Under the pieces are notes generated by a model. That model saw nothing but the letters and a program-made list of their open reading frames with translations. It searched no databases and was not told where the DNA came from. A stretch of 64,000 nucleotides of DNA from Solibacillus daqui (lineage in GTDB: Bacteria > Bacillota > Bacilli > Bacillales_A > Planococcaceae), in assembly GCF_028747805.1 (NCBI RefSeq), contig NZ_CP114887.1, positions 3,745,001-3,809,000 on the forward strand, in the 5' to 3' direction. Below are positions 17,172 through 63,236 of this stretch, one piece after another (position 1 is the first letter of the stretch; every line of letters starts with the position of its first letter). A program made the translations under genes and the position numbers.

Positions 17172-17371
17172 ATCAATTACGCCTCGGCTAACTTTTGTCC
17201 AGATTTTTTTCAAGTTCACTTAAAAAATCCCTCTAAAAATCTGTGACATCCGCCGAAGCATTGGACCAACACGATGTTGGTCACTCAGGCGTTGTCGCAC
17301 GATGCGGCGCTCTTAGCCTGAGTTCCTCTAATTCAGTCCGAGTTTGAACCCCCACTGAATCAAGTTAAAAC
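17172..17371 (+). repeat. Family 1 structured intergenic repeat, copy A
   Basis: Starts with ATCAATTACGCC and ends CTGAATCAAGTTAAAA. Hairpins: CCAACA-CGA-TGTTGG (17266-17280); the nested CTCAGGC/GCCTGAG (17284-17322) enclosing GTCGCA-CGA-TGCGGC with 3 nt left and 7 nt right; and ATTCAGT/ACTGAAT (17331-17337 with 17354-17360). It fills the spacer between ddl and the gene at 17423. Confidence 0.85.
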
Positions 17372-18480: not shown

Positions 18481-18606
18481 AATCAATTACGCCTTGGCGT
18501 AATTGCGGACATACTTGGCATTTAACCCACACATATAGAAGTGGAGGACTTTTGTACCTGTCGCTTTGCTTACGGTACAATAAAATATGCTGAAGAAAGT
18601 TAAAAA
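18481..18606 (+). repeat. Family 1 repeat, internally deleted copy B
   Basis: Keeps the left module (AATCAATTACGCCTTGGCGT, a CAATTACGCC palindrome) and the right module (CCAC...GTGG hairpin, GTACCTGTC...GGTAC, TATGCTGAAGAAAGTTAAA). It lacks the nested hairpins. It ends 19 bp before the rodA-type start codon, so it would be part of that gene's 5-prime leader. Confidence 0.8.
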
Positions 18607-28983: not shown

Positions 28984-29026
28984 AAAAAGGACTGCGCGAA
29001 AAGTAAATACTTCTCGCGCAGTCCTT
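28984..29026 (-). terminator. Strong hairpin with T run on the minus strand
   Basis: GGACTGCGCGA (28989-28999) pairs with TCGCGCAGTCC (29014-29024), with seven T following on the minus strand. It ends transcripts from the GNAT gene at 29198 after they cross repeat copy H, and may also serve the small gene at 28882. Confidence 0.8.
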
Positions 29027-29030
29027 CGTT

Positions 29031-29197
29031 CATGTATTAATTATCCGCTGCAGGCGGTGCTTCTGCGGTGGTCGAAATACGAACGAATGCTAAAACCGTC
29101 ACATCGTGTGACAACGCATTCATGACAAGCATCGTGCTGGCCTCCATCCTCGGCGCAAAGGAGGTGTCCCAGAATCACTTCTCGGACACCCCCTTTT
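29031..29197 (+). repeat. Family 2 structured intergenic repeat, copy H
   Basis: Nested hairpin GAATGC/GCATTC (29085-29121) encloses GTCACA-TCG-TGTGAC with TAAAACC (7 nt) left and AAC (3 nt) right. A second hairpin with the CATCGTG tip follows, then a terminator-like GGTGTCC/GGACACC hairpin ending in six T on the plus strand. It begins directly after the stop codon of the minus-strand gene at 29198. Confidence 0.85.
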
Positions 29198-29479
29198 TTA
29201 TGCCTTTAGATCATCATAGGTATCGCTTTTTTCAAATGCTGATACTACATAGCTACAAATGGCATTCATTTTCAAATTGTTTTCACGTGCATAATCTGCT
29301 GCTGCGTCTAATAATTTTTTGGCTACCCCTTGCCCACGCAGTACATCAGATACATATGTGTGATCCATATTCATAACTCCGTCACGCAAGATCCATGTAA
29401 TTTCTGCTACGCGTTCACCATTTAGCTCATACTCAAAAGCTCCATAATTATTCCCTTTGTCTCGATACGTAAATTCCAT
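29198..29479 (-). CDS. Small GNAT-type N-acetyltransferase (YjdJ/YidJ type)
   Basis: 93 residues, the compact single-domain GNAT form. The acetyl-CoA loop is VLRGQGVAKKLL and the family pattern MNMDHTYVSDVLRGQG is present. Substrate unknown. Its stop codon abuts repeat copy H. Confidence 0.88.
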   Translation of the reverse strand: MEFTYRDKGNNYGAFEYELNGERVAEITWILRDGVMNMDHTYVSDVLRGQGVAKKLLDAAADYARENNLKMNAICSYVVSAFEKSDTYDDLKA

Positions 29480-30620: not shown

Positions 30621-30871
30621 ATCAATTACGCCCCGGCTAATTCTCGTCCTAGCCTAGGCCTGCACGATGCAGGTCAGTTAGCCGTTATCGCATGGATTCG
30701 ATGAACTTAGGCAAACCTTCTAAATTAACTCCTTTAAAAAATCTGTAACATCCGCCGAGCATTAGGTCAACATGAAGTTGATCATGAAATCGTTGTCACA
30801 GGACGTGAAGCTTTTAGCCTTTGTTCCCCTAGTCAGCCGAGGTTTGTAACGCCTGCTGAAGTAAGTTAAAC
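30621..30871 (+). repeat. Family 1 structured repeat, copy C, two modules
   Basis: Starts ATCAATTACGCCCCGG and ends GCTGAAGTAAGTTAAAC. Contains CCTGCA-CGA-TGCAGG (30659-30673), a degenerate nested hairpin with inner ATCG/CGAT and 3/7 spacing (30678-30715), and a second module with TCAAC-ATGAA-GTTGA (30767-30781). The GTTAAAC end includes the stop codon of cvfB (30866-30868). Confidence 0.75.
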
Positions 30872-35418: not shown

Positions 35419-35602
35419 AATCAATTCCCCCCGGCGTAATTGCGTCCAGATTTTTTTCGAGCCAAATCGAAAAAAATCTGTGACATTCGCGGGGCTCAAC
35501 TTGGTTCAGCCGGGGTTTTAACCCCCACTTATAGAGGTAGAGTACTTCTGTACCTGTCACTTTGCTTATGATACAAAAAGAATTTGCTGAAACAAGTAAA
35601 AC
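35419..35602 (+). repeat. Family 1 structured repeat, copy E
   Basis: Keeps the CAATT...GGCGTAATTG left end, a 14-bp stem CAGATTTTTTTCGA / TCGAAAAAAATCTG, TTCAGC/GCTGAA and the right module ending GCTGAAACAAGTAAAAC. It lacks the nested 3/7 hairpin. It ends at the stop codon of the acylase gene. Confidence 0.8.
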
Positions 35603-38014
35603 TTATTCAGCTTTTAAAAGTAATTCATAGCGCATATCCATTTCCCCATTAATCTTTGTTGTATGGTAATGACCGTTTACCCAGTTCGATACTTGGCTGT
35701 CGTACCATTTCGATTTAACATGACCACTTTGACCTGGGCCAACAATATGTTGAGCGGACGATAAATCATTCAAATCTGCAACGAAGCGCCATGATGCTCC
35801 ATGGTTTACATTGCCATTTCCATCTTCAGCAGCTGCTTGTACGGTAACGCTAGAGCCACCTACTGCTAAATTATCAGGATTTAAGTACTCTGCAATAAAG
35901 CTAGACGCACTTGATAAAGGGTGATTGAATGTAAGCTTATTGTAGCTACCCCATTTCCATTTCGAAACAGTTTTACCGAACTGATCTTGAATGGCTAATA
36001 CTGCGTCCTCAAAGGCCTTATAAACAAATTTATCTATGCCACCTTCACCTTGAATCCAGACACCTTCATTTCCAGCGTAGGCATCACGTAACATTTGGTT
36101 AGTGATTTGTGGTTTCGCAGGCATTAATTTATACATATCAGCTGGCATGGCATCTTCAAATAATGCCTCTTTCATATTTTCAATTAAAAAATAATATACA
36201 AGTGGTGCACCTTGCTCTTGATCGTCATAGTACTCCCACTCTTCTAGTAATGTAAGTTCTTTTGCATACTTGCCTTCTGTATCTTGCTCCTTAATCGTAG
36301 CCAGTAAGCTCGGTAAAAATTCCTCGGCATGTAGATTTTTCTTATCCATTTGTATTGCTTTCATATCGGAAGACGTCAATTTTAACTGTTTACCTGTTTC
36401 CTTATCGTATACAGGTGTTTCAATCATTTCGACAATGCGTTCATAACGATATGGCTGTGCCCAAAGGTTTGATAAATGATAGGGATATTCTTTGCCCACA
36501 ACTTCATTGTTGGCTGTTGCAATATAACCTTCTTTTGGGTTAATAACTGACGGTAGTTCGTCAAACGGGATATAGCTTTCCCAACCGTATTCTGATGAAT
36601 TACCTGGTACTGGCAATGCGCCTGTACCTTGTTTACGAATTGGTACTTTACCGTTTGCTTTATATGCAATTTTGCCATCTGTTGATGCAAATACGAAATT
36701 CTGTGCTGGTGCTTTAAAATCTTCTAATGCTGTTTCAAACTCTTCCCAGTTTGTTGCTTTGTTAAAGCCTAGGATGGCTCTTAATTCTTGCGTTGATTGA
36801 AGTGCTGTCCACTGCATAGAGAACACTTCTTTAACCTCTGTTTCTTTTAACATAATGTTTGAAATAATAGGACCGTGACGTGTTTCTACTACTTCAAACT
36901 CTATCGTTTCGCTATCTTTTACTTTAATCGGCTCTTGGCGAACAGTTGCGTCCTCCCAATTTCCATCATATTCAAATTGATATGGATTTTCTGGGTTCGG
37001 CACTTCAATATATAAGTCTTGAACATCTGGATTTACATTCGTTACGCCCCAAGCGATTTCTTCGTTATGCCCTAAAATAATTCCTGGAATCCCCGCGAAA
37101 ATAACACCGCTTACATTTTGTTCTGGTGATTGTAAATGCATTTGATACCAAATAGAAGGCGTACTTAACCCTAGATGTGGATCATCTGCAAGTAATGGCT
37201 TGCCAGATTCCGTCAACTCTCCGGCTATTACCCAGTTGTTACTACCATTAAATTCTGGTGGTAAATAATCTGGTGTAAACACGGATGCGATATCTGTTTC
37301 TATATTTAAGTTTGCTTCAATAATCGATTTTGCGTTTTCTGGATACTCAACAAATAATTCTTTTGCCTCTTCTTCAGTATAGTTTTGTAATGCCCAGGAG
37401 CGGAATGCTTGCTGATTCCAGTTACCACCTAAATCGTATGCCATATATTTACCGATTGTTAATGAATCAAGTGGTGTCCATGGCTCAGGTGTATAGCCTA
37501 ATAGCTTAAATTCAAATGAAAGCTTACTTGTACCCTTTACTTCATCAATGAAAGCATTCACTCCGTCAGCATACCATTCTAATATTTGTTTTGATTCTTC
37601 ATCATAGTCTTCCCATGAAAGTTCTGCCGCATGTCGCAAGCTAAATGTACGGAAGTATTTATCAGTTTGTACCGCAGCCTCCCCAATTACTTCAGCAAGT
37701 TTACCACTTGCTTGACGACGCGATAAATCCATTTGGAATAAACGATCCTGTGCTTGTATATATCCTTGTGCACGGTAAAGGTCAGCATCTGATTTTGCAT
37801 TAAGATGTGGAACCCCTTCACCATCCCGTGTAACTACGACATCGTCATCTAAAATTTTGACAACTGCCTCCCCTTCAATTAAAGGCTTTGAATTCGATAC
37901 GTATACATGTAACCCTGCAACTGCAACCCCACCCAAAATAATGACTACACCAATAACCCAAATAACAAAATTGACCCATTTGCGCCATTTTGGCTTACTC
38001 ATTTGTTGTGCCAT
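35603..38014 (-). CDS. Membrane-anchored penicillin acylase family protein
   Basis: 803 residues from the ATG at 38014 (AAGGGGTGG 6 nt upstream). An N-terminal helix (about 15-40) anchors or exports it, followed by the alpha chain, a linker and the beta chain starting at the catalytic N-terminal Ser of SNNW (about Ser258). It is an Ntn hydrolase made as a precursor that cuts itself. Members hydrolyse penicillin G, other acyl amides or acyl-homoserine lactones; substrate is not predictable here. Family 1 repeats E and F flank the gene in the same orientation. Confidence 0.92.
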   Translation of the reverse strand: MAQQMSKPKWRKWVNFVIWVIGVVIILGGVAVAGLHVYVSNSKPLIEGEAVVKILDDDVVVTRDGEGVPHLNAKSDADLYRAQGYIQAQDRLFQMDLSRRQASGKLAEVIGEAAVQTDKYFRTFSLRHAAELSWEDYDEESKQILEWYADGVNAFIDEVKGTSKLSFEFKLLGYTPEPWTPLDSLTIGKYMAYDLGGNWNQQAFRSWALQNYTEEEAKELFVEYPENAKSIIEANLNIETDIASVFTPDYLPPEFNGSNNWVIAGELTESGKPLLADDPHLGLSTPSIWYQMHLQSPEQNVSGVIFAGIPGIILGHNEEIAWGVTNVNPDVQDLYIEVPNPENPYQFEYDGNWEDATVRQEPIKVKDSETIEFEVVETRHGPIISNIMLKETEVKEVFSMQWTALQSTQELRAILGFNKATNWEEFETALEDFKAPAQNFVFASTDGKIAYKANGKVPIRKQGTGALPVPGNSSEYGWESYIPFDELPSVINPKEGYIATANNEVVGKEYPYHLSNLWAQPYRYERIVEMIETPVYDKETGKQLKLTSSDMKAIQMDKKNLHAEEFLPSLLATIKEQDTEGKYAKELTLLEEWEYYDDQEQGAPLVYYFLIENMKEALFEDAMPADMYKLMPAKPQITNQMLRDAYAGNEGVWIQGEGGIDKFVYKAFEDAVLAIQDQFGKTVSKWKWGSYNKLTFNHPLSSASSFIAEYLNPDNLAVGGSSVTVQAAAEDGNGNVNHGASWRFVADLNDLSSAQHIVGPGQSGHVKSKWYDSQVSNWVNGHYHTTKINGEMDMRYELLLKAE

Positions 38015-38039
38015 GAAATCCACCCCTTCAGTTCTTAGG

Positions 38040-38238
38040 ATCAATTACACCTCGGCGTAATTGCGTCCAGATTTCTTTCGTGATTGCTCGAAAAATTCCT
38101 CTGAAAAATCGGAGACATCTGCCAGAAGCTTTGGGCCAACACGATGTTGGTCACTTAGGCTATGCCGCACGATGCGGCACTTTCAGCCTAAGTTCAACTC
38201 TTCAGCCAGGGTTGAACCACCAATGAAACAAGTTAAAT
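38040..38238 (+). repeat. Family 1 structured repeat, copy F
   Basis: Left palindrome CAATTACACC-TC-GGCGTAATTG, hairpin CCAACA-CGA-TGTTGG (38136-38150), and nested hairpin CTTAGGC/GCCTAAG (38154-38192) around GCCGCA-CGA-TGCGGC with TAT (3) and ACTTTCA (7). The CTTAGG/CCTAAG pair is a compensatory variant of CTCAGG/CCTGAG in copies A and G. Confidence 0.88.
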
Positions 38239-42843: not shown

Positions 42844-43160
42844 AATCAATTACGCCTCGGCGTAATTGCGTCCAGATTTTTTTCAAGCTCGGGGCCACAG
42901 GACGTGGGCCAGTCAGCCGTTGTCACACGATGTGACGTCTTTAGGCTGACTTCCTCTTTAAAACTCACTAAAAATATCTGTGACATCCGCCAGGGCTTGG
43001 GCCAACACGATGTTGGTCACTCAGGTGTTGCCGCACGATGCGGCGTCCTTAACCTGAGTTCCTTCATTCAGCTGGGGTTCGACCACCTTGAAAGAGTTCC
43101 ATTTTAGCATTAATACCCCCCTGTAGAAATAGGGGACTTCTGCTGAATCAAGATAAACTT
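42844..43160 (+). repeat. Family 1 structured repeat, copy G, longest, two modules
   Basis: Left palindrome CAATTACGCC-TC-GGCGTAATTG. Module 1: CCAC/GTGG hairpin, then GTCAGCC/GGCTGAC (42912-42950) around GTCACA-CGA-TGTGAC with 3/7 spacing. Module 2: CCAACA-CGA-TGTTGG (43002-43016), then CTCAGGT/ACCTGAG (43020-43058) around GCCGCA-CGA-TGCGGC, again 3/7. ATTCAGC/GCTGAAT closes the right part; CCCC/GGGG hairpin inside. Between two divergent genes. Confidence 0.9.
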
Positions 43161-58623: not shown

Positions 58624-58796
58624 GTGTCTGTCTCATGTATTACTATCACTGTAGGCTGCTTTTCACGGTGGTCGCAAGTAAAGAACGAATGCGTTGTCAC
58701 GTCCTGTGACAACGCATTCATGACTAGCTTCGTGCTAGCCTCCACTCTCGGCTTAAAGGGAATGTCCCAGAGTCACTTCTAGGACATTCCCTTTTC
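58624..58796 (+). repeat. Family 2 structured intergenic repeat, copy I
   Basis: The core is a perfect 14-bp stem GAATGCGTTGTCAC (58687-58700) with its complement (58706-58719) and a 5-nt loop; second hairpin CTAGC-TTCGT-GCTAG; then AAAGGGAATGTCC / GGACATTCCCTTT terminator-like hairpin. It abuts the stop codon of the minus-strand racemase gene at 58799. Confidence 0.87.
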
Positions 58797-63060: not shown

Positions 63061-63236
63061 GTCTGTCTCATGAATTAATTATCCGCTGTAGGTTGCTTTT
63101 CGCGGTGGGCTTAAGTAAAGAACGAATGCTAAAAACGTCACGCCCTGTGACAACACATTCATGACTAGCTTCGTGCCAGCCTCCATTCTCAGCGCAAAGG
63201 GAGTGTCCCAGAATTGTTTCTAGGACACTCCCTTTG
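63061..63236 (+). repeat. Family 2 structured intergenic repeat, copy J
   Basis: Core: GAATGC (63124-63129), TAAAAAC (7 nt), GTCAC-GCCCT-GTGAC, AAC (3 nt), ACATTC (63155-63160). Then CTAGC-TTCGT-GCCAG and a terminator-like AAAGGGAGTGTCC / GGACACTCCCTTT hairpin. It abuts the hflX stop codon (63246). Confidence 0.85.

Follow-up and report, generated by a model that had tools for sequence, protein, structure and literature searches.

The Bacillaceae-1 motif (Rfam RF01690) was reported among 104 candidate structured RNAs and marked as RNA, not as cis-regulatory (Weinberg et al. 2010, PMC2864571). Its strand has been called uncertain, with CsrA binding proposed for the opposite strand (PMC4333381), and the literature mentioning the Rfam accession reports no function for it (supplementary files being outside the search). 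Repeats of the bcr1 type are short, high-copy, intergenic and MITE-like and are tied to a TTTAT motif (PMC6542083, PMC3446304), and a TTTAA motif adjoins the left ends of mini-IS605 elements (PMC2993954).

The window, meaning the whole 64,000-nucleotide stretch of DNA analysed here, contains nine RF01690 copies above the gathering score of 35 (cmscan, Rfam 15), each aligned to model positions 1-67 of 67 with 48.7-76.5 bits and each with the two-hairpin fold of the Rfam family. An earlier note on this DNA had described nested hairpins at 17284, 38154, 42912 and 43020 as a family without a name. All four are present with the stems as quoted and are matched by RF01690 on the minus strand (E 2.4e-12 to 4.1e-7), the model strand being the reverse complement of the strand described in the note; five further copies lie at 29074, 58676 and 63113 on the plus strand and at 30659 and 30767 on the minus strand. 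The Rfam match is the refuting result that the note itself had named, and a motif already in the catalogue is no new discovery. The constant tips pointed out in the note are real, but they belong to a second hairpin of the family, CCAAC-ATCGT-GTTGG, which had been overlooked. What stands of the note's interpretation is a single repeat family of fixed geometry with compensatory stem changes and the behaviour of mobile DNA; what is not supported, besides the missing name, is selection on each copy and a resident Y1 transposase.

In a noticeable difference with its cataloguing as a non-cis-regulatory candidate RNA, RF01690 is here probably a structured optional module of mosaic, MITE-like mobile repeats, present in high copy number with no detectable constraint on the single copy, and judging from context the motif is likewise a passenger module of mobile mosaic repeats in related genera. 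What would be new is that RF01690 travels in this clade as such a module whose copies are not individually selected, which argues against counting them as functional sRNA genes.

The carrier repeats termed class A resemble bcr1 of the B. cereus group in being short, high-copy, intergenic, MITE-like and variable between strains, but bcr1 is described from the B. cereus group only, and class A differs in its TTTAA motif and in the RF01690 core that it may contain, the comparison being one of descriptions. With the mini-IS605 and IS200/IS605 palindromic elements class A shares a left end beside TTTAA, hairpins at both ends and the lack of a target duplication; unlike IS200/IS605-derived elements, it lacks a Y1 or TnpB parent with the same ends, both in the host and at those Y1 loci of relatives that were examined. 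REP and BIME elements are similar to the RF01690 carriers in their mosaic hairpin modules, extragenic placement and co-option around gene ends, whereas a REP/RAYT system differs in that the host has no resident RAYT (Y1) and the class A ends (CTTG..., ...GTAATTGAT) lack a GTAG tag. Compared with a DDE-type MITE, class A has no terminal inverted repeats, since CTTGATTCAGC and GTAATTGAT are not inverted copies and each has its own hairpin, and no target-site duplication in four pairs of occupied and empty sites.

Carrier repeats of the RF01690 core

A protein encoded near the repeats has its best named matches, at 83% identity, in two Solibacillus species, whose genomes are listed under the genus of the host. 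RF01690 matches number 93 in the single 4.1-Mb contig of the host; after alignment of all copies, a simple script assigned 55 of the 93 to class A, 33 to class B and 2 to class C and left three unclassified. The same-species genome G061 has 101 matches and other congeners range from 3 to at least 69, and matches are absent from many other genera of the host's family.

Class A elements read TTTAA^CTTG(A/C)TTCAGC, a hairpin, the optional core and CGGCGGATGTCACAGATTTTTT ... AAAAAATCTGGACGCAATTACGCCGAGGCGTAATTGAT^ (the caret marks the junction with flanking DNA), so that the ends CTTGATTCAGC...GTAATTGAT each carry a hairpin module. The folds predicted for these modules are far more stable than those of shuffled sequences, with z of -7.7 for the 5' hairpin and -4.9 for the 3' module. 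The stretch 38040-38238 singled out in the earlier note corresponds to one entire mobile element (38040-38232) plus its TTTAA flank, with the 67-nt core lying within an element of about 190 nt that has hairpins at both ends. A second core can occupy the class A 3' module, and the core may be found in either hairpin module or be absent. In class B repeats the core lies between a 5' hairpin and a 3' hairpin that resembles a terminator. Table 1 lists the elements of the window; the core-less element at 35420-35596 directly adjoins the end of an 813-aa open reading frame (35603-38044).

Table 1. Carrier repeats and RF01690 cores in the window
Feature	Position	Strand	Basis or remark
Class A element (CTTGTTTC...GTAATTGAT)	38040..38232	-	Ends from empty-site comparison and 47 right ends; left flank TTTAA at 38233-38237
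RF01690 core, copy F	38136..38202	-	cmscan E 4.1e-7, 54 bits
Class A element	17172..17364	-	Element ends
RF01690 core, copy A	17266..17332	-	E 5.4e-11
Class A element, two cores, one per hairpin module	42845..43152	-	Empty in 14/14 congeners checked
RF01690 core, copy G1, within 3' module	42894..42960	-	E 2.9e-10
RF01690 core, copy G2, within 5' module	43002..43068	-	E 2.4e-12
Class A element, two cores	30621..30865	-	Directly after stop codon (TTTAA); exact duplication-free insertion compared with congener G013
RF01690 core	30767..30833	-	E 1.3e-6
RF01690 core	30659..30726	-	E 7.3e-6
Class B repeat: 5' hairpin, core, terminator-like 3' hairpin and T run	28989..29199	+	Sequence
RF01690 core in class B	29074..29140	+	E 9.4e-9
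RF01690 core in class B	58676..58738	+	E 2.3e-7
RF01690 core in class B	63113..63179	+	E 1.6e-8
Class A element without RF01690 core	18482..18599	-	Left and right ends found, no core
Class A element without RF01690 core	35420..35596	-	Left and right ends found, no core

The outer module occurs without the core at 11 of its 14 best places in the host, which lie away from any RF01690 match, and the core occurs in at least two repeat architectures besides class A, so core and carriers are separable. A class A context surrounds 14 of the best 30 RF01690 places in the host's wider family. Other places in other genera (L215, L220, L221, L226, L228 and L231) show a different long-hairpin repeat, TTGATTGGAGTG...GGAAATCAAC, which is apparently another abundant family. 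The class A outer module gives at least 14 to at least 18 scored matches in most well-populated genomes, and candidates at first look number 116 in the host, 215 and 255 in the congeners G002 and G009, and 69 in G031, the last of these having four RF01690 matches. Plasmid and phage collections contain no match to the outer module, and spread by plasmids or phages was set aside on that result. Since the core is found in far more genera than the outer module of class A, it may have, or may once have had, a function of its own.

Covariation among copies and constraint on the single copy

The compensatory stem changes noticed in the four hairpins extend far beyond them. Thirty-six cores from many genera, seven of them from the window and 29 from as many other genomes of the host's family, were aligned without gaps, and 14 of 17 pairs show double changes. 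The doubly changed cells number 105, far above the 25.0 +/- 3.8 found in shuffles and the 3-14 obtained with partners slid by one to three columns. The double changes are almost purely Watson-Crick, with G-U in 3 of 612 cells, although the rarity of non-canonical pairs is partly a selection by score as this set consists of high-scoring matches. In 120 distinct cores, summed over 16 stem pairs with the frayed pair 11-49 and the two tip-closing pairs left out, G-T cells number 27 and A-C cells 39, and the asymmetry of G-U against A-C consequently gives no preference for a strand. An RNA under selection is expected to tolerate wobble pairs, and by these counts neither strand shows that tolerance. 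Template switching between the arms during replication can perfect a stem and change both its sides at once (PMC8794818), and a process of this kind may be the source of the RF01690 covariation.

The note had taken the paired changes as a sign of selection on structure, and at the level of the single copy this is not borne out by orthologues from one species, in which the stems change as fast as the DNA around them. Between the host and G061, 37 cores with orthology required on both sides have 53 substitutions in 1257 stem positions (4.2%), compared with 287/5554 (5.2%) in the immediate surroundings of the element and 536/17711 (3.0%) in DNA more than 250 bp away. Divided by class, stems differ at 23/713 positions in A1 and at 23/476 in B, the latter set against 196/6706 outside. 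The stem changes comprise 16 between Watson-Crick and A-C, nine between Watson-Crick and G-T and one from Watson-Crick to Watson-Crick. An apparent conservation of stems in the first 14 orthologues (7/475 against 898/23537) was overridden by the 37-copy set, and that in 20 well-formed copies (1.6% against 3.3%) is about the effect of conditioning on one intact copy, which removes half the differences. Individual copies look neutral in this lineage, and the covariation must therefore have built up among spreading copies and not locus by locus. With copies that decay freely, the motif is closer in its behaviour to mobile DNA than to an RNA gene at work. DNA palindromes that spread can thus acquire strong covariation as well, a warning where covariation is taken, as is usual, for proof of a functional RNA.

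Insertion sites, turnover and the search for a mobiliser

At the window sites near 30.6, 38.1 and 42.9 kb the element is absent in congeners; in the 30.6-kb intergenic region G009 has a core-less class A element at another position, which its relative G002 lacks. Comparison of occupied with empty sites defines the junctions. The host reads TTTTTAA^CTTG..TTGAT^AATAAC where G061 has the empty TTTTTAAAATAAC (in longer form TTTTTAA^CTTGATT...TTGAT^AATAACAAC and TTTTTAAAATAACAAC), the window reads GTTTAA^CTTAC..TTGAT^CGAATAAT where G013 has GTTTAACGAACGAT (GAAATCGTTTAA^CTTAC...TTGAT^CGAATAATAA and GAAATTGTTTAACGAACGATAA), and G009 reads ATTAA^..^TGCAA where G002 has TTTAATGCTA (GATTAA^CTTGC...TTGAT^TGCAAAC and CATTTAATGCTAT). 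None of the four pairs has a target duplication, and such pairs make the transposition mechanism directly testable. The target is asymmetric, with T at -5, -4 and -3 in 33, 38 and 37 of 39 left flanks, the two A's of TTTAA being less informative since they were included in the search pattern; the right flank has no signal beyond one T. The fourth pair, again between the two same-species genomes, is an insertion at L110 that follows the T run of a terminator. Two other differences between the host and G061, L120 and L127, are internal deletions in the host and were rejected as insertions.

Three class B sites of G061 (L115, L121 and L123) are occupied in the host by an ordinary terminator, unrelated or partly similar (734930, 2253066 and 1402008), so class B seems to replace terminators and not to insert beside them. 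By two-sided flank matching, 37 of the 80 G061 copies with sequence have no orthologous host copy, an upper bound on turnover because orthologues are also missed at contig edges, after rearrangements and through the strictness of the matching. At five non-orthologous sites that were fetched and aligned on both sides or on one (L110, L115, L121, L123 and L128) the core is absent from the host. The core has also been gained or lost inside class A elements shared by the host and G061 (L105, L124 and L129), for which gene conversion between copies would be the simplest reading. Simple open-frame calls place 35 copies between convergent genes and 4 between divergent ones, and between co-oriented neighbours 32 copies run in the direction of the genes and 14 opposite to it; this preference for the 3' ends of genes would be expected if insertions are tolerated there, or if the copies affect the ends of mRNAs.

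The earlier note had suggested a REP/IS200-type Y1 transposase acting on folded single strands, and that such an enzyme spreads the copies now is very unlikely. Duplication-free insertion 3' of TTTAA as in mini-IS605, the terminal hairpins, and a TTTAA flank that can extend the left hairpin of core-less copies by pairing with TTAA(A) at its foot all agree with it. However, no Y1_Tnp is found in the host, G061, G008 or G009, four genomes with hundreds of copies between them, and no TnpB in the host, G061 or G009. The class A ends are missing from all 11 Y1 loci examined in relatives, whose Y1 elements were rejected as the parent, and the association of Y1 with RF01690 across 61 genomes is not significant (p = 0.13). 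A resident Y1 gene as the mobiliser is already refuted, and movement of class A, for which duplication-free insertion 3' of TTTAA is shown, needs a diverged, lost or different enzyme; HUH-like chemistry would be a guess. The few matches to the ends that lie close to TnpB genes seem to be independent insertions in the neighbourhood, and those at L292 have no counterpart at the remaining copies of that TnpB (L293-L296). In G002 there are 19 TnpB matches compared with none in the host, G061 and G009, probably a recent lineage-specific expansion.

Competing explanations for the motif

In the mechanism proposed, the RF01690 core would ride as an optional module on short non-coding mobile repeats, the class A carrier would insert 3' of TTTAA without duplicating the target, and copies would decay after insertion. 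The paired structure may matter during spreading, through recognition of the folded strand or gene conversion between copies, and template switching from arm to arm may keep the palindromes perfect. The mobile-module reading is borne out by patchy high copy numbers, exact pairs of occupied and empty sites, gain and loss of the core and lost constraint on stems. Against it, no transposase was found where Y1 and TnpB were looked for, the plasmid and phage collections lack the outer module, an unusual finding for an element that moves freely, and the orientation of copies is non-random, which could be function or only tolerance. A wider version, in which RF01690 is no RNA gene but a DNA-hairpin module recognised in the spread of several unrelated repeats, moved by an undescribed, TTTAA-targeting and duplication-free system that is neither Y1 nor TnpB and with its Watson-Crick-only covariation produced by template switching, is tentative and rather doubtful.

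Function of each copy in the 3'-UTR, a CsrA sponge and a resident Y1 are less well supported than the mobile-module reading, and the suggestion in the note that copies could act as RNA has no positive support. It is unlikely that the copies are maintained because they act in cis in the 3'-UTR, as terminators or as stabilisers of mRNA. Their placement downstream of genes, mostly convergent or co-oriented, and the terminator-like hairpin with which class B ends and replaces ordinary terminators would suit such a role, and for about half of the bcr repeats in B. cereus transcription is reported, within UTRs or elsewhere in transcripts (PMC3446304); but same-species orthologues, those of class B too, show no conservation of stems, strains differ in which loci are occupied, and shared elements can do without the core. 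Least probable is the sequestration of CsrA by a regulatory RNA, a role put forward for the reverse-complement strand of RF01690. The published motif match (PMC4333381) is joined by tips that in some copies read AGGAY on the opposite strand and by csrA in 35/35 RF01690-positive genomes of the first 61. That perfect pattern was broken in 261 genomes, where RF01690 occurs in 191/234 with csrA and 11/27 without (Fisher p = 1.4e-5), an association confounded by genus as eight csrA-less genomes are of one genus and seven of them lack RF01690. Several csrA-less genomes have many copies, among them G119 (rated 100% complete, in 2 contigs) with 18 or more. Opposite-strand GGA is missing from at least 52 of 120 first tips and at least 74 of 120 second tips. 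Among the latter ATCGT is the commonest, and its opposite strand, ACGAT, has no GGA; many tips are ACGAY and not AGGAY, and the stems of orthologous copies are not conserved. The csrA-less carriers and the GGA-less tips mean that a CsrA sponge is not a general role, which weakens the published proposal.

A separate structural detail concerns the class A 3' module, e.g. at 38040-38130, in which the right-end hairpin CAATTACGCC/GGCGTAATTG and an outer pairing GCCTCCGGCG/CGCCGAGGC are mutually exclusive, and the module could switch between these two predicted folds.
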